A stretch of DNA of 27,854 nucleotides from the IMG/VR virus record IMGVR_UViG_3300048590_000398, positions 1 to 27,854 of that record; one strand, given 5' to 3'. This document shows, in pieces, positions 1,749 to 15,714 of the stretch. Within the stretch, counting starts at the first letter, position 1. Each line of letters begins with the position of its first letter. This DNA is from a virus. A program made the position numbers and the translations under genes. The notes beneath the pieces are model-generated. The model saw only the letters and a program-made list of their open reading frames with translations. It was not told the DNA's origin and ran no database searches.

Positions 1749-2177
1749 ATGGCATCGGGCACGTTCGCCTGGTACGGGCAGGGGCTTCTGCGCATCGTCA
1801 ACGGCGAGATCGACATGAACGCGCACACCTTCAAGGCCGCACTCGCCTCCAGCTCCTACACTCCGAACCAGGACACGCATGACGATTGGGCCGACGTGAG
1901 CGCCAACGAAGTCACCGGCACCAACTGGGCCGCCGGCGGCCAGACGCTCTCGATCACGACGGGCATCGACACGGCCAACAACCGCGTCTCCTTCACCGCG
2001 ACGGACATCAGCGTGGCGAGCGTCACCCTCAGTGACGGCAAGCACCTGGTCATCTACGACGACACGCACGCGAGCAAGGCGCTGGTGGGTTACGTGACGT
2101 TCGACACGCCGCTGGCCCCGAGTGCCGGCACGCTGGCCGTGGACTTCGGGACGGAGATCGGGCGGATTACCTACTAG
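1749..2177 (+). CDS. Phage structural protein, small beta-rich
   Basis: A 142-residue protein preceded by GGAGG seven bases before the ATG. It opens with a short segment followed by phrases (FKAALASSSYTPNQDTHDDW, then NEVTGTNWAAGG) that recur in a family of small phage structural proteins found near head or tail-fibre genes of many siphoviruses. The rest is rich in Thr, Ser, Val and Asp, as in beta-sandwich virion proteins, and has no signal peptide or membrane segment. It is the first gene after module 1 and precedes further small surface-type proteins, so a head-fibre or decoration role is plausible. The exact role is inferred from composition and place. Confidence 0.6.
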   Translation: MASGTFAWYGQGLLRIVNGEIDMNAHTFKAALASSSYTPNQDTHDDWADVSANEVTGTNWAAGGQTLSITTGIDTANNRVSFTATDISVASVTLSDGKHLVIYDDTHASKALVGYVTFDTPLAPSAGTLAVDFGTEIGRITY

Positions 2178-2226
2178 GCCGCTCGGCGGTGATCCATGCG
2201 TGCCGGCGGACCAGGGACGATCCATC

Positions 2227-2577
2227 ATGGCGGTGCAGACCATCGAATACCTGACGATCGGATGGGACGCCGGCACGCAGCGGCCGGTCTGCTCCGTGTG
2301 GTTGGCGTATGACGACAGCACGCTGGCCCTGGTCTCGGTGCGGGTGGTCAATGCGTCCGACGATACCAGCGTGTCGTTCGTGCTGACCGATCACGCCCGC
2401 GCGCCCGGTCACCCCAGGCGGGAGACGACCCTGACAATCACGCCGGGGCGTGACGAGACCGCGGCCCCGCGCGGGCTGACCGTGACCCGCGACGAGACGG
2501 ACGCGCTGGTCGTGCCGGGCTACTCGTTGCACGTGACCGGCCCACCGACGCGCACCGATCCCCGGCGGGTGCGCTGA
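2227..2577 (+). CDS. Hypothetical phage protein, 116 aa
   Basis: The ATG at 2227 is chosen because upstream codons in this frame cross the previous gene's end and look non-coding. The protein alternates polar and hydrophobic residues (VCSVWLAYDDSTLALVSVRV, VSFVLTD), as expected of a small beta-sandwich. A basic, Pro-rich tail follows (PPTRTDPRRVR). There are no cysteine motifs, membrane segments or known catalytic motifs. It ends in a TGATG overlap with the long repetitive protein, so the two are probably co-translated and may be parts of the same surface structure. I do not recognise the family. Confidence 0.6.
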   Translation: MAVQTIEYLTIGWDAGTQRPVCSVWLAYDDSTLALVSVRVVNASDDTSVSFVLTDHARAPGHPRRETTLTITPGRDETAAPRGLTVTRDETDALVVPGYSLHVTGPPTRTDPRRVR

Positions 2578-4586
2578 TGCCGGTCGCCGTTGATGCGGTC
2601 ACGACCGCCATTTCCCCCGGTGCAAACGTCACCTCCCTGAGCTGGTCACACACCTGCTCGGGGAGTGACCGCTATCTCATCGTCGCGGCGCGCTACTCCA
2701 GCGGCGCCGGCACGGTGGGAGCCACCTATAACGGCGTGGCGATGACGCCGCTGACCTCGGTTGGCAGCCGGCTCTATGTCTACGTCCTGCTCAATCCCCC
2801 GGCCGGGACCTACACGGTCCAGACCACGAACACCATCGGCCGGGACGTGGTCGGCGGCGCGGTGTCACTGAACGGCGTGGATCAAACGACACCGATTGGC
2901 ACGCCCACGGCGACCACGCCGGCCGCCTTCACGGCAACCATTTCCGATGCCGTGAGTTCAGCCACCGGGGAGCTGGTGATCGGTCTCGCGTCGAACAGCG
3001 GCAATACGACTGGCACCCTCACCTCGGTCGGCAGCGGGCAGACGGAACTGGCCGAGCAGCCAAACATCTCCGGCAACGCGACATCTATGTGGCTCTCGTC
3101 CAAGCCAGGCGACGCCACCACGACGCTCTCCTGGACGTATGACAGCGGCACCTGGTCGAATCCGATGATCTCGCTCGTGCCCGTCAAACCGTCTGCGGGC
3201 GGGTCTGACGCCAGCGCATCCGTGACCGTCGGCAGCGCGGCTGCCTCGGGGCTGAACGTCACCGCCACCGCGCAGCGATCGGACACCGGCGCCGCCGCCG
3301 TCGGATCGGCCACCGGCTCCGGATTGAGCGTGGCCGCCACGGCGGGCCAGCAGGCGAGCGGCACCGTCACCGTGGGCGGCGCACCAGCGGACGGAACGAC
3401 CGTCACCGCCGCCGGGGCGATCGCCGCCAGCGCCACCGTCACCGCCGGCCCCGCGGCAGCCACCGGCTTCACGGTCACGGCCGGAACCGGCACGACCGGC
3501 AGCGTCACGAACGACGACGCGGCGGCGTCCGGGCTGATCGTGACCGCGACGGCCGGGCAACAGGCGACCGGGCTGGTCAGCGCCGGCACGGCCACGGCGG
3601 ACGGCCTCGCGGTCACGGCGTCAACGGCGGTCACCGCGACCGGCACCGTCGCCGTGGGGGAGGCGGTCAGCACTGGCCTCGGCGTCAGCGGATCGAGCGG
3701 CGCGACCGGGGCGGTCATGGTTGGCCACGCGACGGCAGACGGCCCCGCCGTGTCCGCCACGGCGGGCACTGGGGCCAGCGCCACAATCACGCCCGGTGAT
3801 GTCGTCGCATCGGGCCTCATCGTCACCGGGCGCACCAGCGCGGATGCCGCGATCACCGTGGGCACCGGCGCTGCCTCCGGTCGCAGCGTCGCGGCCACCG
3901 CCGGTGCCGGCGCAAACGGCACGGTGTCCATGGGCGACCTCGCAGCGTCCGGCCTGAGCGCCACGGCGACCACTGGCACGACCGGCGCTGTGACGGCTGG
4001 GGGTGCCGCCGCATCCGGCCTGCTGATCGCGGCGAGTGTGGGCGGAGCGGTGCAGGGTGTGGTGCAGACCGGCCCAAGCGCGGCCGCCGGCCTGAGCGTC
4101 ACGGCATCGGCCGGAACCAGCGCATCGGTGATCGCAGGCGCCGCGGCGGCGGACGGCGCGGCGGTGAGCGCGGGCATCAGCGCCGGGGCGGTCGCAAGCG
4201 TTGGCACGGCGATGGGAACCGGCCTGGTCGTGGTCAGCAGCGCAGGCGCCGCTGGTGCGGTCAGCCCCGGGGCCATCACGGTAACCGGGGTGCTGATCGA
4301 GGCGGGCGTGGGAACGACCGTCACGATCAGCACCCCGGCCGCAATCGTCGCCGATGGCATCACGGTAACGGCGGATGGGGCGGTGTTCATTCCGGCGACG
4401 GGATCGCTCACCGCCACGCTGCGCACCACCGCGCACCTCACGGCGTCGATGCACACGGATGCGGCCGTTCGCTCGGTGGTGACGGTCGCGCCTGCGTTGC
4501 ACGGCGCCGTTGCCATCGCTGATGCGCTCACCGCTACCGTTGGCACTGATCGCGCGCTGCGCGCCATGCTGGAGGTTCTTCCATGA
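2577..4586 (+). CDS. Repetitive fibre-like virion protein
   Basis: A 669-residue protein in three parts. Residues 1-205 form a globular, beta-rich domain containing LIVAARYSSGAGTVGATYNG and repeated VG, SG and TS turns. About residues 211-600 are roughly 17 degenerate repeats of 20-23 residues with the pattern (T/A)VTVGxAAASGLxVTATAG. A short Ala/Thr-rich tail closes the protein. Such low-complexity beta repeats suit a fibre, a head spike or a surface-binding protein. It lies before the portal, away from the tail-tip genes, so a head-attached fibre is more likely than a tail fibre. The start overlaps the previous stop and the end overlaps the next start (ATGA). No family is assigned with certainty. 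Confidence 0.65.
   Translation: MPVAVDAVTTAISPGANVTSLSWSHTCSGSDRYLIVAARYSSGAGTVGATYNGVAMTPLTSVGSRLYVYVLLNPPAGTYTVQTTNTIGRDVVGGAVSLNGVDQTTPIGTPTATTPAAFTATISDAVSSATGELVIGLASNSGNTTGTLTSVGSGQTELAEQPNISGNATSMWLSSKPGDATTTLSWTYDSGTWSNPMISLVPVKPSAGGSDASASVTVGSAAASGLNVTATAQRSDTGAAAVGSATGSGLSVAATAGQQASGTVTVGGAPADGTTVTAAGAIAASATVTAGPAAATGFTVTAGTGTTGSVTNDDAAASGLIVTATAGQQATGLVSAGTATADGLAVTASTAVTATGTVAVGEAVSTGLGVSGSSGATGAVMVGHATADGPAVSATAGTGASATITPGDVVASGLIVTGRTSADAAITVGTGAASGRSVAATAGAGANGTVSMGDLAASGLSATATTGTTGAVTAGGAAASGLLIAASVGGAVQGVVQTGPSAAAGLSVTASAGTSASVIAGAAAADGAAVSAGISAGAVASVGTAMGTGLVVVSSAGAAGAVSPGAITVTGVLIEAGVGTTVTISTPAAIVADGITVTADGAVFIPATGSLTATLRTTAHLTASMHTDAAVRSVVTVAPALHGAVAIADALTATVGTDRALRAMLEVLP
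3207..4379 (+). repeat. About 17 tandem degenerate coding repeats
   Basis: Direct repeats of about 60-69 bases inside the fibre-like gene encode units of the form (T/S)VTVGxAAASGLxVTATAG. The unit is clear in protein but diverged in DNA. The spacing is even, and each unit carries a VG-x-A-x-A-x-G-L core. Confidence 0.75.
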
Positions 4587-4873
4587 GCACGTACTACCCG
4601 GGCGTCACCATCCGGGCCACGGTTGCCGATCTCACCCACATCGATAACGGCGCGATCGAGATGGGCGAGGCGACGGTGACCTTCACCCTCTACGATCGAA
4701 CTGGGGCGGTCGTGGACACCGGGAGTGGCACGCCAGATACCGATGATTGGTCCTTTGATTTCAACCTGCCGGCCACGCCGGGCACCTATCGGCTGGTCGC
4801 CGAAGCAGTGCTCACGGACGGCACCACCACCTGGAAGGGGCGCGAACAGATCATCGTTTCGCGCCTGCCGTAA
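4583..4873 (+). CDS. Small Ig-like phage protein
   Basis: A 96-residue protein whose ATG overlaps the previous stop (ATGA). Alternating strands (VTIRATVADLT, ATVTFTLYDRTGAVV, GTYRLVAEAVLTDGTTTWKG) and the absence of cysteines suggest a single immunoglobulin-like or invasin-like beta-sandwich. Such domains are common on phage capsids and fibres, where they bind weakly to surfaces. It follows the repetitive protein directly and may be part of, or attach to, the same appendage. It ends 12 bases before the portal start, with the portal's ribosome binding site (GGAG) between them. The fold is inferred from pattern alone. Confidence 0.6.
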   Translation: MSTYYPGVTIRATVADLTHIDNGAIEMGEATVTFTLYDRTGAVVDTGSGTPDTDDWSFDFNLPATPGTYRLVAEAVLTDGTTTWKGREQIIVSRLP

Positions 4874-4885
4874 GGAGCCCGAGCC

Positions 4886-6238
4886 ATGACTGATCGCGCG
4901 CGCGCATCCGCCCCCTTCGTCACCCACGGCGCATCGGGCCTCGCCCACTACGGCGGGGTGCTCTGGTCCGACGATCCCGACAAGGCGTGGCGCGGGGCGG
5001 AACGGGACCGGACCATCCGGGCCATGATCGCCTCCCCGGAGATCGGCGCGATCCTGCACGGCATCGAGATGCTGGTGCGGCGGGTGGACTGGTCGATCGA
5101 GCCGGCCGATGAGAGCCCGGCCGCGACGGACCTGGCCACGTTCATCGAGGAATGCCTCGCCGACATGGACGGCTACTGGCCGGGCGACACCCTCTCGGCG
5201 ATCCTCTCCTACATCCCGTGGGGTTGGTACGCCGGCGAGCTCATCTACAAGCGGCGCGGCGGGCCGGAGCAGGCCGATCCCACGCAGCGCAGCGCCTTCG
5301 ATGACGGGCGGATCGGCTGGCGGCGCTGGGCAACCCGGCCACAGGCGACCCGCTACGGCTGGGCGTTCGATGACGCCGGCGACGTGACGGCGCTGATCCA
5401 GCAGGACCCGGTCGGGTTCCAGAAGTACGAGATCCCAATCGAGCGGCTGCTGCACATCGTCTACTCCGGCAAGACCAACTCGCCGGAAGGGTGGACGCCG
5501 CTGCGGCCGGCATACGACGCCTGGTACTACAAGCGGGCCATCCAGAAGATCGAGGGGATCGGCATCGAACGGGACCTGGCCGGCATCCCGATGATCCGGA
5601 TGCCGGCGTCGGTGATGCAGGAGGGTGACCCGCTCTACGCCGCCTACCAGCAGATGGTGACCAACCTCCGGAACGGCGATCAGGCCGGCATCATCCTGCC
5701 GAGCGACAGCAACCAGGACGGCGGCAAGCAGTATGAGTTCGAGCTGATCAAAAGCGGCGGCGGCAAGGCCTTCGATACCGATCCGGTGGTGCGCCGCTAT
5801 GCCAACGAGATCGTGACCGTCTTCCTGGCCAACGTGATGCGGACCGGGCAGGACGGCATCGGGGCGCTGGCACTTTCGGAGACGCAGAGCGGGCTGTTCC
5901 AGTCCGCGATCGGGGCGCACCTCGACATCGTGGCCGATGCGATCAACACGCAGGCCATCCCGCGGCTGTTGCGCCTCAACGGCCTGGACAGCGAGCTGGC
6001 GCCCAGGCTCAAGCCGGGCCGGATCGATAGCCGCGATCTCCAGAATCTCGGGCTCTACCTGGTGCGGCTGGCCAATACCGGCACGCTGATCGATTCGCCG
6101 GAGCTGCGCGAGTTCCTGCACACGGTGGCCGGCCTGCCGATCAATGACCTGCCGACCGCTGATGAGATCAAGCAGCAGCGGGCCGAGTGGGCGGCGACCA
6201 AAGGCAGCGGGGATGCGCCGCCGGACGGTGGCGCATGA
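4886..6238 (+). CDS. Portal protein, Mu gp29/DUF935-like
   Basis: A 450-residue protein of typical portal length. It contains the sequence features of the DUF935/gp29 portal class: an early segment on a conserved bilayer of helices (IRAMIASPEIGAILHGIEML), a Trp-rich stretch (PWGWYAGELIYKRR), and a later QSGLFQSAIGAHLDIVADAI helix. The portal forms the dodecameric ring at the capsid vertex through which the terminase drives DNA and to which the connector proteins dock. A GGAG ribosome binding site lies nine bases upstream. The stop overlaps the start of the MuF-like gene as ATGA, the usual neighbour of a portal. The family call is from motif and synteny. Confidence 0.88.
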   Translation: MTDRARASAPFVTHGASGLAHYGGVLWSDDPDKAWRGAERDRTIRAMIASPEIGAILHGIEMLVRRVDWSIEPADESPAATDLATFIEECLADMDGYWPGDTLSAILSYIPWGWYAGELIYKRRGGPEQADPTQRSAFDDGRIGWRRWATRPQATRYGWAFDDAGDVTALIQQDPVGFQKYEIPIERLLHIVYSGKTNSPEGWTPLRPAYDAWYYKRAIQKIEGIGIERDLAGIPMIRMPASVMQEGDPLYAAYQQMVTNLRNGDQAGIILPSDSNQDGGKQYEFELIKSGGGKAFDTDPVVRRYANEIVTVFLANVMRTGQDGIGALALSETQSGLFQSAIGAHLDIVADAINTQAIPRLLRLNGLDSELAPRLKPGRIDSRDLQNLGLYLVRLANTGTLIDSPELREFLHTVAGLPINDLPTADEIKQQRAEWAATKGSGDAPPDGGA

Positions 6239-6933
6239 CGCCGGCCGATCTCGAATGGGATGACCGCACGCGGCGCTACCGCCACACGCGGACCGGCACG
6301 CTCGTGACCGAGGCGCAGCTCGTAGCGCTGCGCAACGCCATGGCCGACGCCTACGAATCACGGATGGTCGCCCTGGTGGCCGACTACGTGGCCGGCACCA
6401 TCGCCAAGGTGACCTGGGAGGATCGCTTCTTGACCCTGATCGTGGAAGCGGCCTCGCATGGGTACGTGTTGGGGCGGGGCGGGACGGCGCTGATGACCGA
6501 CGCCGACTGGGACGAGCTCGCGGTCGTGGTGACCCGGCAGACCGCCTACGGGCAACGCTTTCTCAACGAGCTGCAGGCCGCCATCGACGCGCAACGTGGT
6601 ACAACACCCCTCCAAGCCATCAAGGAGGCACTGGAGGCTCGCACGCAAGCGCGGGCGGCACTGTATGGAGGGGCGGCCGTAGAAGGCTACGAACGGGGAC
6701 ATGCAGCAGCAAAGGGCGGTGGGGCATCGGGCAGCCGGCTCCCCTGCTATCCGGCGGACGGCGGCACCGAATGCAAGAGCCGCTGCCGGTGCCGATGGTC
6801 GATCGTCGGGGACAACGAACGGCAGGTGTGGGTGGCGACCTGGATCACTGAATCGGACGGTGACGTGTGTGCCGGCTGCGCGGAGCGGGGACGCCTGTAT
6901 CAGCGCGTGGAGTACCCGATGGCGATGCGATAG
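6235..6933 (+). CDS. MuF-like minor head protein
   Basis: A 232-residue protein directly after the portal and overlapping it by ATGA. The N-terminal two-thirds is helical. The C-terminus carries a cysteine-rich segment seen in phage minor head/MuF-type proteins: a C-x-P-A-D-G-G-T-E-C stretch, then KSRCRCRW, then V-W-V-A-T-W and a final CAGC pair. MuF-family proteins are packaged in small copy number and help head assembly or DNA ejection. It is somewhat shorter than full-length MuF (Mu gp30). It is the last gene before module 2, so this block, like four others, ends in a protein with CxxC-type cysteines. Start chosen for the ATGA overlap. Confidence 0.75.
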   Translation: MTPADLEWDDRTRRYRHTRTGTLVTEAQLVALRNAMADAYESRMVALVADYVAGTIAKVTWEDRFLTLIVEAASHGYVLGRGGTALMTDADWDELAVVVTRQTAYGQRFLNELQAAIDAQRGTTPLQAIKEALEARTQARAALYGGAAVEGYERGHAAAKGGGASGSRLPCYPADGGTECKSRCRCRWSIVGDNERQVWVATWITESDGDVCAGCAERGRLYQRVEYPMAMR

Positions 6934-6959
6934 GTCGTCGCATGCAACAACATCGCGTG

Positions 6960-6968
6960 TGCTAAACT
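6960..6968 (+). promoter_or_regulatory. Putative extended -10 (TGC TAAACT), module 2
   Basis: A TGnTAAACT extended -10 motif lies 26 bases after the MuF-like stop. No good -35 is visible. The following bases share gggccatgca with module 1. Confidence 0.5.
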
Positions 6969-6990
6969 GACATGTGAAAAGGGCCATGCA

Positions 6991-7027
6991 TGGGCCAGCG
7001 ACTCCACTGGAGTCGCTGGCCCATTTT
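6991..7027 (+). terminator. Perfect hairpin with T-tract, module 2
   Basis: A 15-base arm (6991-7005) is exactly complementary to 7009-7023, with a three-base loop and TTTT after it. The lower arm begins with the same GGGCCAGC as in module 1, so the two modules look related by duplication. The ribosome binding site of the next gene (TGGAG, 7031-7035) follows within five bases of the T-tract. Confidence 0.8.
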
Positions 7028-7040
7028 GTTTGGAGCCGAG

Positions 7041-8756
7041 ATGGCAGACGACGACTTCACCCTCAGCGACGACGACCGCGCGGCGATCCTGGCCCAGCTT
7101 CGGCAGGCGATGGGCCGCGGCGTCGCCGTGCCGAATGACCAGCTGCCGAACGCACTTCACCTCGCCGAGGGCGCCTACACCGGGCTGCTGGTGGCGTTGT
7201 GGCTGGACGACGCCACCGCGGCCGCCCTGGCGCAACCAGGCGGGGAACCACCTGAGAACCTGCACATCACCCTGGCCATCGTGCCCGACTTGGCCACGGC
7301 CGATGACTTGACCTTTGCCCGCATCGTCGGGGCGGTCGATGACATCGCCGCCTACCACGTGCCGTTGACCGGCACGATCGGCGGGCATGGGCGGTTCTTC
7401 GGCGGGGACGATGGCGACGTCATCTACGCCGCGCCCGATGTGCCGGCGCTTGCCGAGCTGCGGCAGGCCATCGTGGAGCATCTTGGATACGCCGGTGCCC
7501 GCGTCAGCACCGAGCATGGCTTCACGCCGCACATCACGCTCGCCTATGTCTCAGACGGCACCGAGCTCACGCCGGAGCTCGCCGATCTGCCGTTGCGCTT
7601 CACCGACATCGTGGTCATCGCGGGCGAGCGTCGCGTCGCGATCCCGCTGCGCGGCATGGCCGACGGCATGGTCTACGCCGAACCGATCCGCGACCATGCC
7701 GGCATTCGGCTCGTCCGGCCCCGCACGTTCACGGCGGCCAGTGCGTGGGTGCAGTTCCTGCCCCCGCCGGGCACGTACAGCCATGCGGTCTTCGGGACGC
7801 TCGACTTCACGGCCGAGAAGTACGCGGCGATCGTCGCCAACTTCAGCGCCAACACCTACGGGCAGGATCTGCCCATCAACGTCGAACACGACTACCGCTC
7901 GGCCGGGGCGGTCGGCTGGATCCGCGAGATGCGTCTCGGGGAGGACGGCTCGATCGAGGTCCGCCCGGAGTGGAATGACCGGGGCCGCGAGCTGATCGCC
8001 GGCGACCGCTTCCGCTACGTCTCCGCCGAGATCTACGACCAGTGGCAGGACCCGGTCACCGCCGAGTTCCACGACAACGTGGCGGTCGGCATGGCGATCT
8101 GTGTCCGCCCGCATTTCAAGACGGACGTTCTCCGGCCGCTGGCGGCCAGCGAAACCGGGGCGTTGGATGATCAGGCCGGGGCAGCCCGGCAGGAGGGTAC
8201 TGGCGTGTCTGACGCCAAGAACCAGCAGCCGCCAGCGGCATCGCCGCCGGTCACGCTTACCGAGGCCGAGATTCGCGAGTATCGCGAGCTCAAGCCGAAG
8301 TACGAGGCGACGGTCACGGAACTGGCCGAGGCCAAGACGACGATCACCGCCCAGGAGGGGCGCATCGCCTCGCTCGAGACCGCACAGCGGACGCAGCGCT
8401 TTACCGCGCTGGTCAAGGGTGCGGACGGCGGCCCGCGCTGGTTCGGGGATCTCCCCGGCCACGTGGCGATGCTCAACGATCTGGCGCAGGCGTTCGGTGA
8501 GGACTCCGAGCAGGTCACGCGCTACATCACGACGAACACCGAGCAGGCGAAGCAGGTGGCGGCGTCCGGGCTCTTCTCGGCGACGGGCACGGGCGCCGGC
8601 GGCGACGGTGATGCGGCCAAGACCGCGCTCGAGCAGATCGACGCCAAGGCGCGCGTCTACGCCGAGGCGAACGCGGTCAGTCATGCCGTGGCGTTTACCC
8701 ACGTGCTGGAAACCGACCGCGAGCTGGCCGCGGCCTACGCGAAGGAACGCAACTAG
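7041..8756 (+). CDS. 2H phosphoesterase fused to Mu I-like protease and scaffold
   Basis: A 571-residue polyprotein. Residues about 45-205 form a 2H phosphoesterase domain with both signature motifs, H75-I-T77 (LHITL) and H164-I-T166 (FTPHITLAYV). Residues about 225-375 match the Mu I prohead protease family: a conserved INVEHDYRSAGAVGWI block with H283, then FRYVSAEIYD. From about 390 to the end is an Ala/Glu-rich coiled coil typical of a scaffold. Mu I cleaves the scaffold and head proteins during maturation. The 2H domain cleaves cyclic or 2'-5' phosphodiester bonds in known members. ATG 7041 is chosen over in-frame ATG 6990 because it has GGAG before it and 6990 lies inside the module-2 hairpin. 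The fusion is unusual. Confidence 0.8.
   Translation: MADDDFTLSDDDRAAILAQLRQAMGRGVAVPNDQLPNALHLAEGAYTGLLVALWLDDATAAALAQPGGEPPENLHITLAIVPDLATADDLTFARIVGAVDDIAAYHVPLTGTIGGHGRFFGGDDGDVIYAAPDVPALAELRQAIVEHLGYAGARVSTEHGFTPHITLAYVSDGTELTPELADLPLRFTDIVVIAGERRVAIPLRGMADGMVYAEPIRDHAGIRLVRPRTFTAASAWVQFLPPPGTYSHAVFGTLDFTAEKYAAIVANFSANTYGQDLPINVEHDYRSAGAVGWIREMRLGEDGSIEVRPEWNDRGRELIAGDRFRYVSAEIYDQWQDPVTAEFHDNVAVGMAICVRPHFKTDVLRPLAASETGALDDQAGAARQEGTGVSDAKNQQPPAASPPVTLTEAEIREYRELKPKYEATVTELAEAKTTITAQEGRIASLETAQRTQRFTALVKGADGGPRWFGDLPGHVAMLNDLAQAFGEDSEQVTRYITTNTEQAKQVAASGLFSATGTGAGGDGDAAKTALEQIDAKARVYAEANAVSHAVAFTHVLETDRELAAAYAKERN
8205..8756 (+). CDS. Nested scaffold protein, internal in-frame start
   Basis: A GTG at 8205, in frame with the protease gene, has a strong Shine-Dalgarno sequence (AGGAGGG, 8191-8197) seven bases upstream. 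It would yield a 183-residue protein consisting only of the Pro/Ala linker and the coiled-coil scaffold. In phage Mu, the scaffold Z is likewise made from an internal start in the protease gene I. An internal start gives more scaffold than protease, which matches their roles. What is seen is the start signal; that it is used is inferred from the Mu precedent. Confidence 0.6.
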   Translation: MSDAKNQQPPAASPPVTLTEAEIREYRELKPKYEATVTELAEAKTTITAQEGRIASLETAQRTQRFTALVKGADGGPRWFGDLPGHVAMLNDLAQAFGEDSEQVTRYITTNTEQAKQVAASGLFSATGTGAGGDGDAAKTALEQIDAKARVYAEANAVSHAVAFTHVLETDRELAAAYAKERN

Positions 8757-8797
8757 GCCTCCGCCTGGCGCGGACCGGCTGAGAAGGAGCACGACTC

Positions 8798-9193
8798 ATG
8801 GCGTGGGAAGTTGACGGCGTCGTCAAGCTCGTGGGGCACACGGCGGGCGCCGATCTGAGTGGCAAGCAATATCACTTCGTCAAGCTGGCGGCCAACAAGA
8901 CCGTGGCCGTCTGCGCGGCGGTGACGGACATCCCGATCGGCGTGCTGCAGAACACGCCGACGAGCGGGCAGGCGGCCGAGGTCTGCATCATCGGCATCAG
9001 CAAGATCGTGGCCGATGCCAACCTGGCGACGACCGACCTGATCGGCACCAGCGCCGACGGGCAGGCAGCCAAGAAGACGCCGGGCACCGACACGACCAAC
9101 TACGTCGTTGGGCAGGTGCTCGAGGAGAACACGACCGCCGGCGGGATTATCACGGCGGTGATCAACTGCGCGGCCCCGGCACGGGGCGCCTAG
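8798..9193 (+). CDS. Capsid decoration-like protein (DUF2190-like)
   Basis: A 131-residue protein with AAGGAG ribosome binding site before the ATG. It is Ala, Thr and Val rich and has the pattern seen in small head-decoration or DUF2190-type proteins: repeated short beta strands, a PIGVLQNTPTSGQAAEV segment and a central GISKIVAD. It lies between the protease/scaffold and the major capsid protein, which is the standard place for a decoration protein. Such proteins bind the outside of the expanded capsid and stabilise it against internal DNA pressure. The family call rests on that segment and gene order. Confidence 0.72.
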   Translation: MAWEVDGVVKLVGHTAGADLSGKQYHFVKLAANKTVAVCAAVTDIPIGVLQNTPTSGQAAEVCIIGISKIVADANLATTDLIGTSADGQAAKKTPGTDTTNYVVGQVLEENTTAGGIITAVINCAAPARGA

Positions 9194-9232: not shown

Positions 9233-10177
9233 ATGCCTACCGCGTCGGGGGTGCACATCGACCGCGCGCTGACCAATGTCAGCCTGGCCTATGTGCAGAG
9301 CGATGCCGACTTCATCGCCGGGCGGGTCTTCCCGTCCGTGCCGGTGAGCGCGCAGACGGACAAGTACTGGACGTACGACAAGAACGACTGGTTCCGGGAC
9401 GAGGCGCAGATCCGCCCGCCCGCGACCGAATCGGCCGGCGGCGACTTCGACATCGACACCGCGTCCTACTACGCCAAGGTCTACGCCTTCCACATGGACC
9501 TGGACGATCAGACGTTGGCCAACGCGGACGCCGCGCTGAACCTGGAGGCGGACGCCGCCCGGTTCGTGACCCGCCGGCTGCTGTTGCGGCGCGAGATCGA
9601 CTGGGCCAGCAAGTACTTCACGACCGGCGTCTGGGGCACCGACAACACGTCGGCCACCGACTGGGATAACTACGCCACCAGTACGCCGCTGCTCGACATT
9701 CAGGCGGCCAAGGGGACCATGCTCAACACGACCGGCTACGAGCCGAACACGCTCGTGCTGGGCTACGACGTCTACGCGGCCCTGCTCAACCATCCGGACT
9801 TCGTGGACCGCATCAAGTACACGAGCAGCGAGGCGATCACCAGCCAGATCATGGCACGGCTGTTCGGCGTCGATCGGGTCTTTGTGGCCAAAGCGGTCAA
9901 GGCGACCAACGTGGAAGGCGAGACCGCGGCGTACGCGCAGGTCAGCGGCGATAACGCCTTGCTGGTCTACGTGCCCCCGTCTCCGTCGCTGCTCACGCCG
10001 AGCGCCGGCTACACCTTCGAGTGGACCGGAGTCTCGGACGGCGTCGGCGAGAACGTTGGCACCGTGCGGATCCCGATTCCGGAAAAGCGGGTCGTGCGGG
10101 TCGAATCGCAGATGGCGTGGGACGCCAAGGTGATCGCCGCAGACATGGGCTACTTCTTTTCCGACCTCACGACTTGA
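9233..10177 (+). CDS. Major capsid protein
   Basis: A 314-residue protein preceded by AAGGAG. ATG 9233 is chosen over the ATG at 9223, which is in another frame. Its length and position after protease, scaffold and decoration genes are those of a major capsid protein. The N-terminal segment (SLAYVQSDADFIAGRVFPSV PVS) and the later QIMARLFGVDRVFVAKAV helix and strand pattern match Mu-like and related major capsid (coat) proteins with the HK97 fold. The C-terminus contains RVVRVESQMAWDAKVIAADMG, typical of the P-domain strand. It would form the icosahedral shell around the scaffold. The fold is inferred, not proven. Confidence 0.88.
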   Translation: MPTASGVHIDRALTNVSLAYVQSDADFIAGRVFPSVPVSAQTDKYWTYDKNDWFRDEAQIRPPATESAGGDFDIDTASYYAKVYAFHMDLDDQTLANADAALNLEADAARFVTRRLLLRREIDWASKYFTTGVWGTDNTSATDWDNYATSTPLLDIQAAKGTMLNTTGYEPNTLVLGYDVYAALLNHPDFVDRIKYTSSEAITSQIMARLFGVDRVFVAKAVKATNVEGETAAYAQVSGDNALLVYVPPSPSLLTPSAGYTFEWTGVSDGVGENVGTVRIPIPEKRVVRVESQMAWDAKVIAADMGYFFSDLTT

Positions 10178-14788: not shown

Positions 14789-14826
14789 GGGCGTCGGAAT
14801 TGCGGCCCGACGCCCAGCACCGTTTT
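14789..14826 (+). terminator. Hairpin leader, module 4
   Basis: GGGCGTCGG (14789-14797) pairs exactly with CCGACGCCC (14807-14815) across a nine-base loop. TTTT follows seven bases later (14823-14826), so it is a weaker terminator than modules 1 and 2. It lies four bases after the -10. Confidence 0.68.
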
Positions 14827-14844
14827 GCGACATGGAAGACAACG

Positions 14845-15714
14845 ATGCCCTCACAGCCTACATCCTCCAGTGAACGAATGTGCAAAGGCTGCGGCGTGGT
14901 TCTCGTGCGACGCCCCAAGGAGATGCCGTCCGTATTTGCAACACGCCTATTTTGCAGCTATCCGTGCTCGGCCGAATACAGGGGTCGCAACCTTCCGCAG
15001 TCGAAAGCGTGTGTGATCTGTGGCGAACACTTCTCTCGACGCGATGGGCAAGGCGCGTCAACGTTCCGGCGGAAACAAACCTGCTCATTTGACTGCCAGC
15101 GAGTTTACATGTCGAACCGGCAGAAGGACGTGAATCCCGCATACGTGCCGCCGCCGAAACGGTGCGAGGTGTGCCGGAAGTGGTTTGCGAAACGAAAAGA
15201 GGAGTCGCATCCCACATATCTGGCGAAACGAACCTGCTCCAGAAAGTGTGCGGCAAAACGCTTGGAAGGGTGGCGCAAAGACTATCCGCCTCGTGAGTGC
15301 CCGATCTGCCATACCATGTTTGAGCGAAGAGCCGACGAACGGGCAGGGAACTGGAATCGTCGGTTGACGTGCTCGATCACGTGCCAGGCCCGCCTCATGG
15401 TGCAGGTCCGCAACCTGGGTGTTGGTGAGCGATCATCGGCCTATCCCTATCAATGGACGAGCGGGAATGGCCGACAGCTACGGGAGTGGATTCGGGAGCG
15501 CGATCAGCGAATCTGCCAAGTGTGTGGAGCAACGGAAGGGGCGAAGGTTCATGCGGTTCACCATATCGACTACGAAAAGGACAACATCAACCCATCAAAC
15601 CTCATAACACTCTGCCACCCATGCCACGGTAAGACAAACCATGACCGGTGTTTCTGGCAAGCGTTCTTCGAGCAGTTCATGGCCGAACGGAGCGATGCGG
15701 AGCGCGCCGCCTAA
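14845..15714 (+). CDS. HNH endonuclease with tandem zinc knuckles
   Basis: A 289-residue protein. Four zinc units of about 45 residues come first: C13/C16/C37/C41, C56/C59/C80/C84, C107/C110/C131/C135 and C152/C155/C176/C180, each C-x2-C...C-x3-C. A C-terminal HNH nuclease follows, with C224/C227, H239-H240, N249, C257/C260-H261 and H266. HNH enzymes cut DNA with one metal ion. Base composition is clearly less GC-rich than the neighbours and codons differ, which points to a recent insert, perhaps a homing-type nuclease between chaperone and tape-measure genes. The ATG 14845 has GGAAG upstream; a TTG at 14800 would start inside the hairpin. Confidence 0.85.
   Translation: MPSQPTSSSERMCKGCGVVLVRRPKEMPSVFATRLFCSYPCSAEYRGRNLPQSKACVICGEHFSRRDGQGASTFRRKQTCSFDCQRVYMSNRQKDVNPAYVPPPKRCEVCRKWFAKRKEESHPTYLAKRTCSRKCAAKRLEGWRKDYPPRECPICHTMFERRADERAGNWNRRLTCSITCQARLMVQVRNLGVGERSSAYPYQWTSGNGRQLREWIRERDQRICQVCGATEGAKVHAVHHIDYEKDNINPSNLITLCHPCHGKTNHDRCFWQAFFEQFMAERSDAERAA

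Follow-up and report, generated by a model that had tools for sequence, protein, structure and literature searches.

The window, by which we mean the whole 27,854 nt stretch of DNA analysed here, is record IMGVR_UViG_3300048590_000398 of an uncultured virus of bacteria. Its head gene region includes a single gene joining a 2H phosphoesterase domain to a head maturation protease and a scaffold, and contains the following features:

4886-6238, plus strand: Mu-type portal protein (PF06074, E 1e-32)
6235-6933, plus strand: probable MuF-like minor head protein (a putative name, drawn from phrog_24776, its location and a comparable gene in L006)
6990-7024, plus strand: perfect hairpin of 16 bp followed by a T-rich tail, directly upstream of the 2H-protease gene
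7041-8756 (stop included), plus strand: fusion of a 2H phosphoesterase, a Mu I-type head maturation protease and a scaffold; 571 aa, one intact ORF
7173-7658 (residues 45-206), plus strand: 2H phosphoesterase domain (PF13563, LigT_PEase, profile boundaries, AlphaFold2 pLDDT 89.7)
7263-7271, plus strand: first HxT motif, H75-I-T77, kept in 32 of 32 sequences
7530-7538, plus strand: second HxT motif, H164-I-T166, kept in 31 of 32 sequences (L039 has HVC)
7734-8150, plus strand: Mu I-type protease domain (PF10123)
7887-7889 and 8022-8024, plus strand: H283 and S328, putative protease catalytic residues, invariant in the window, L003 and L006
8205-8756, plus strand: scaffold part with an internal GTG start at 8205 and AGGAGGG at 8191-8197
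8798-9193, plus strand: small head protein of the scaffold/decoration type (phrog_673, E 1e-15)
9233-10177, plus strand: major capsid protein (phrog_1005, E 2e-95)

The order of these genes (portal, MuF-like, 2H-protease-scaffold, small head protein, major capsid protein) is Mu-like and is the same in L006, with the PF10123 protease sitting between the portal/MuF and capsid genes. In phage Mu the protease gene likewise follows portal and MuF-like genes and comes before those for a small head protein and the capsid, and an internal start (I/Z) gives a separate scaffold. The window protein shares with Mu gpI/gpZ the protease profile, the gene order and the internal scaffold start, but at its N terminus it also has a short extension and the 2H domain. 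Elsewhere in the window, a 669-residue repetitive protein rich in Ala, Thr, Val and Gly (2577-4586) is unusually placed between the large terminase and portal genes and has small companions at 1749-2177 and 4583-4873, and an HNH endonuclease that carries several Cys clusters resembling zinc ribbons (14800-15714) is inserted in the genes beyond the capsid module.

The fusion ORF likely starts at the ATG at 7041 rather than at an earlier ATG at 6990, which is an unlikely start because the hairpin precedes the ATG at 7041; lying between the MuF-like and 2H-protease genes, this hairpin resembles a head-operon terminator or processing site. The sequence-only reading had ended the gene at 8204, just before the GTG at 8205, but the ORF is open to 8756 and the shorter version loses the in-frame scaffold. 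A separate scaffold consisting of the final 183 residues is probably translated as well, since the in-frame start and ribosome-binding site are kept in L003 (the same GTG and site) and in L006 (an ATG with AAGGAG). The scaffold part is helical in the AlphaFold2 model, with local confidence at its C end; the full-length model, built from three sequences, has a pLDDT of 36.7 and is unusable for the relative placement of the 2H and protease domains.

The N-terminal domain is a 2H phosphoesterase by fold, motifs and Pfam assignment. PF13563 (2_5_RNA_ligase2) matches residues 73-183 (E 1.1e-13, 52 bits against a cut-off of 27), LigT_PEase also matches the 2H part, and the motif sequences are ENLHITLAI (H75) and FTPHITLAY (H164); when the residues of the domain are shuffled 20,000 times, two such HxT motifs arise in only 7 cases. 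PF10123 (Mu-like_Pro) matches residues 256-398 (E 1.5e-7, 31.7 bits against a cut-off of 25.2), and the PHROGs matches are to RNA ligase (phrog_14859, 9e-26) and head maturation protease (phrog_328, 2e-12). AlphaFold2 gives a 2H fold for the isolated domain (17 sequences, pLDDT 89.7, pTM 0.86), and nearly all of the 49 PDB entries matching this model at E<=0.001 are named as 2H proteins. Both motif histidines and both threonines are present in every row of a 17-sequence alignment, and across 32 sequences, among them ones from Arthrobacter, Gordonia, Mycobacterium, Streptomyces and Rhodococcus phages, the motifs depart only in TurkishDelight (L039), with the HVC noted above. The sequence-only reading had assigned the domain to the 2H superfamily with HxT motifs at H75 and H164, ahead of a Mu I-like protease, and had proposed structure prediction as a check; on all of these points it holds, with the histidines conserved in relatives rather than lost. 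The fusion is seen again in L003 (2H part 82% identical) and L006 (47%), and is therefore not an assembly artefact. Comparison of the window with L003 (Nei-Gojobori) yields dN/dS values of about 0.20 (2H part), 0.12 (protease) and 0.35 (scaffold), indicating at the sequence level that the 2H part is under purifying selection.

Members of the same 2H subfamily are joined to a variety of other head proteins. A tblastn search with the 2H domain of L005 matched 363 phage records, nearly all of them actinophages, and in each of 12 annotated records sampled from these the 2H gene lies among head genes near a portal, protease or capsid gene. The domain is paired with a Mu I-type protease in the window, L003 and L006; with an XkdF protease (PF14550) in L005 and the Arthrobacter phages L018, L019 and L038; with an HK97-type S78 protease in L010 and, by eye, L015; with portal and MuF in L004 and L009; and with portal alone in L007 and L013 (by eye). 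L016 alone has 2H, S78 protease and major capsid protein in a single protein, its 983-residue ORF (5998-8946) combining the 2H domain with an S78-type prohead protease and an HK97-type major capsid protein. The long MuF-containing Streptomyces phage proteins L032 and L039 also include a 2H domain and are named in GenBank as capsid maturation protease or MuF-like fusion; the labels of L015, L030 and L040, the portal of L007 and L013, and the protease of L032 and L039 come from sequence reading or GenBank names and not from above-threshold Pfam matches. On Deinococcus gobiensis plasmid P2 the 2H domain is attached to a DUF935 portal, and a phage protease gene comes next.

Where the 2H domain is encoded separately, the gene lies within the head genes, by portal or capsid genes, in seven of seven annotated phage records; a portal gene is nearby in L008, and L012 has genes for a portal and a DNA-transfer protein close by, while a scan of a few neighbours of the solo genes in L017 and L028 identified no head gene. 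GenBank names for 2H genes include 'RNA ligase', 'aldolase class I', 'capsid maturation protease' and 'head maturation protease', and the 2H-XkdF proteins called 'aldolase class I' or 'RNA ligase' (L018, L022, Laroyevirus gp18) are most likely misnamed. The gp18-type proteins of Arthrobacter Laroyevirus resemble the window protein in having 2H and then a head protease in one chain, but the protease is XkdF (PF14550) rather than Mu I, and the 2H parts are about 33-41% identical. With the window protein as query, records in the annotated phage collection match the 2H or the protease part and never both, and the exact 2H-Mu I pairing is therefore so far seen only in uncultured phages.

Mapping partner labels on the 2H tree requires at least some 14 changes (a direct count that leaves out the outgroup gives 13, and simplified labels give 12), and for the Mu I-protease label two or more changes are forced by the starred branches; since most deep branches are open, these figures count partner changes and not the direction of gain or loss or the exact number of fusions. 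The outgroup was L029, a distant stand-alone 2H protein from a Patescibacteria MAG and the only relative found in a second scan of genome collections, the first having found none. L044 has the same protease-scaffold with a related N-terminal flank but no 2H domain, which argues that the 2H domain is an add-on, dispensable for the work of the protease; the N-terminal slot of this protein (1789-3468) is occupied by another domain (phrog_16160) and a Cys-rich linker.

The closest solved relatives of the domain are of the ThpR/LigT type. The best matches to its profile are archaeal LigT-like proteins, the Deinococcus radiodurans cyclic phosphodiesterase, and the LigT proteins of Thermus thermophilus and E. 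coli, and Foldseek places 5h7e (the D. radiodurans enzyme, TM 0.78), 1iuh and E. coli LigT at the top, with both HxT motifs aligning (5h7e, 5ldi). ThpR/LigT enzymes are stand-alone and cellular, whereas the window 2H is a fused phage domain and misses the TIGR02258 ThpR/LigT equivalog cut-off of 65.7 bits (29.4 for the window, 59.9 for L006). Among viral structure models the best matches are actinophage 2H proteins, several of them 324-1102 residues long and some named 'putative structural protein' or 'capsid morphogenesis protein'. The modelled fold therefore places the window 2H with the LigT type, within a separate phage subfamily. Rotavirus VP3 2',5'-phosphodiesterase reaches a TM of about 0.55, below the LigT-type leaders, and PADLOC returned no defence match for the window 2H domain.

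This placement bears on what the enzyme might do. The sequence-only reading had pointed to the phage 2H enzyme Acb1, whose tetrad is likewise HxT/HxT (PMC9117128), and the domain could be an anti-CBASS enzyme of that type working within the infected cell and never packaged. Fifteen of 17 members do match the Acb1 profile when E values up to 1 are allowed (best 1.3e-5), but the window protein does not match PF23474 even at E 1, relatives scanned singly score 16-20 bits against a cut-off of 27, and the Acb1 structures, of which 7t26 has the 2H fold and both motifs in common with the window domain, rank only 44th-45th (TM about 0.5), behind LigT. Acb1 is moreover a separate small protein of about 150 residues, and a late head protein would be an odd fusion partner for an early cytosolic function; the specific likeness to Acb1 was not supported, and we regard this explanation as improbable. 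Slightly more doubtful still is a structural or regulatory role in which the 2H fold binds nucleic acid or aids assembly and catalysis is unneeded: the domain does reside in a protease-scaffold protein whose N-terminal region differs between relatives, but the catalytic motifs are retained across very different partners, and the same protease-scaffold occurs in L044 without 2H.

A role in RNA processing deserves more weight, although we consider it unlikely. Instead of destroying signal nucleotides, the enzyme would open 2',3'-cyclic phosphate ends left by host ribonucleases, or trim RNA, and so protect tRNA or phage RNA, or else it would act as an RNase. The closest solved relatives are ThpR/LigT-type 2',3'-cyclic phosphodiesterases, and an RNase role is among the two options offered in PMC5512222. 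Repair, however, requires a ligase, and Rnl2-type RNA_ligase (PF09414), RtcB (PF01139) and KptA (PF01885) were found in none of 22 records (14 isolate phage genomes and 8 metagenome contigs, the window included, which are possibly fragments) in searches whose controls worked; the controls of a T4 Rnl1 search were silent, and the negative rests on these three families. Their absence weakens the RNA-repair reading, and PMC5512222 states that 2H versions of this kind never accompany RNA ligases; later repair steps could nonetheless come from host enzymes, and an RNase or end-processing role may be compatible with the absence of a ligase.

The explanation that we favor is that the 2H domain is a packaged and injected passenger acting early in the next cell, which as a whole we hold at a little under an even chance. 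The N-terminal domain would be an active, metal-independent phosphoesterase carried by the head protease-scaffold protein. Abundant short scaffold and a few full-length chains would co-assemble inside the prohead, the scaffold tail drawing the full-length chains into the shell; scaffold would then be removed by cutting during maturation, and protease action may free the 2H domain, which would be retained inside the shell and reach the next cell together with the DNA. There its most likely targets would be phosphodiester bonds that are 2'-linked or 2',3'-cyclic, in signalling nucleotides made by the host or in RNA ends, and cleaving them would blunt early defence. We predict with considerable confidence that the window domain is an active enzyme, and its presence in the head is likely; its injection is not quite an even prospect, and action on host defence nucleotides is somewhat less likely still.

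Attachment of the domain to many different head proteins suggests that it may be carried in the virus particle, perhaps against host defence, and since it swaps among unrelated carriers that all lie inside the prohead or at its inner face, selection for the prohead interior is the best explanation of the pattern. Head proteins are made late, and the enzyme would therefore come too late for early defence unless injected. Prohead proteases often exit the head after maturation, and the 2H part could be lost from the head in this way. The modelled domain is also nearer to housekeeping ThpR/LigT proteins than to known anti-defence enzymes, which counts against an anti-defence role. Of the head-carried role put forward in the sequence-only reading, packaging is made plausible by the covalent link to the protease and the head setting in many phages; injection and substrate, like packaging itself, are what we infer. 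A literature search short on subscription journals found neither experiments nor virion proteomics or ejection data on any 2H member. A virion-associated 'phosphoesterase' of phage P318 was not counted, as it is encoded in a DNA-metabolism cluster away from head genes.

There is precedent for injection in T4 Alt and MuF-fused effectors, as described in PMC5512222 and PMC9503650. We note that in Gordonia phage Kabocha (L036) the 2H gene adjoins a gene for a VIP2-like ADP-ribosyltransferase close behind the portal gene, possibly forming a cluster of injected effectors; such transferases are of a kind predicted to be head-packaged (PMC9503650), and this neighbour fits the injection reading on that account.

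The general idea was published in 2017 and 2022 (PMC5512222, PMC9503650): it was proposed there that 2H domains joined to MuF or portal proteins are packaged into the head and injected, to act either as RNases or on nucleotide signalling of the host. The 2H proteins of Iyer et al. 2017/2022 are, as in the window, joined to a head protein and without an RNA ligase partner, and here too the members are fused to head proteins or cluster with their genes. The available text, however, names only MuF and portal as 2H partners, and the capsid-processing serine peptidase as a partner of Nudix and not of 2H, whereas the window partner is a Mu I-type protease with scaffold. New relative to that work are this pairing, the occurrence with three protease types and with a capsid protein, and the evidence from L044 that the domain is an add-on; the recurrent swapping of 2H partners is what tells us most.

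Many sequenced actinophage genes labelled RNA ligase are 2H phosphoesterases of the head module. The fusion also points to a class of enzyme that may be head-carried and may act at the first moment of infection, before phage gene expression; because such 2H genes occur in laboratory phages that grow on M. smegmatis and Arthrobacter, the question is directly testable. In its most far-reaching form, which we think unlikely, one 2H subfamily has been repeatedly grafted onto prohead-interior proteins (three types of protease, portal, MuF and capsid), travels into the cell along with the DNA, and on entry destroys an alarm nucleotide of the host. If this is true, hundreds of 'RNA ligase' genes would encode anti-signalling enzymes loaded in advance and carried in the virion, and the prohead protease would have a second job as a device for their loading and release.
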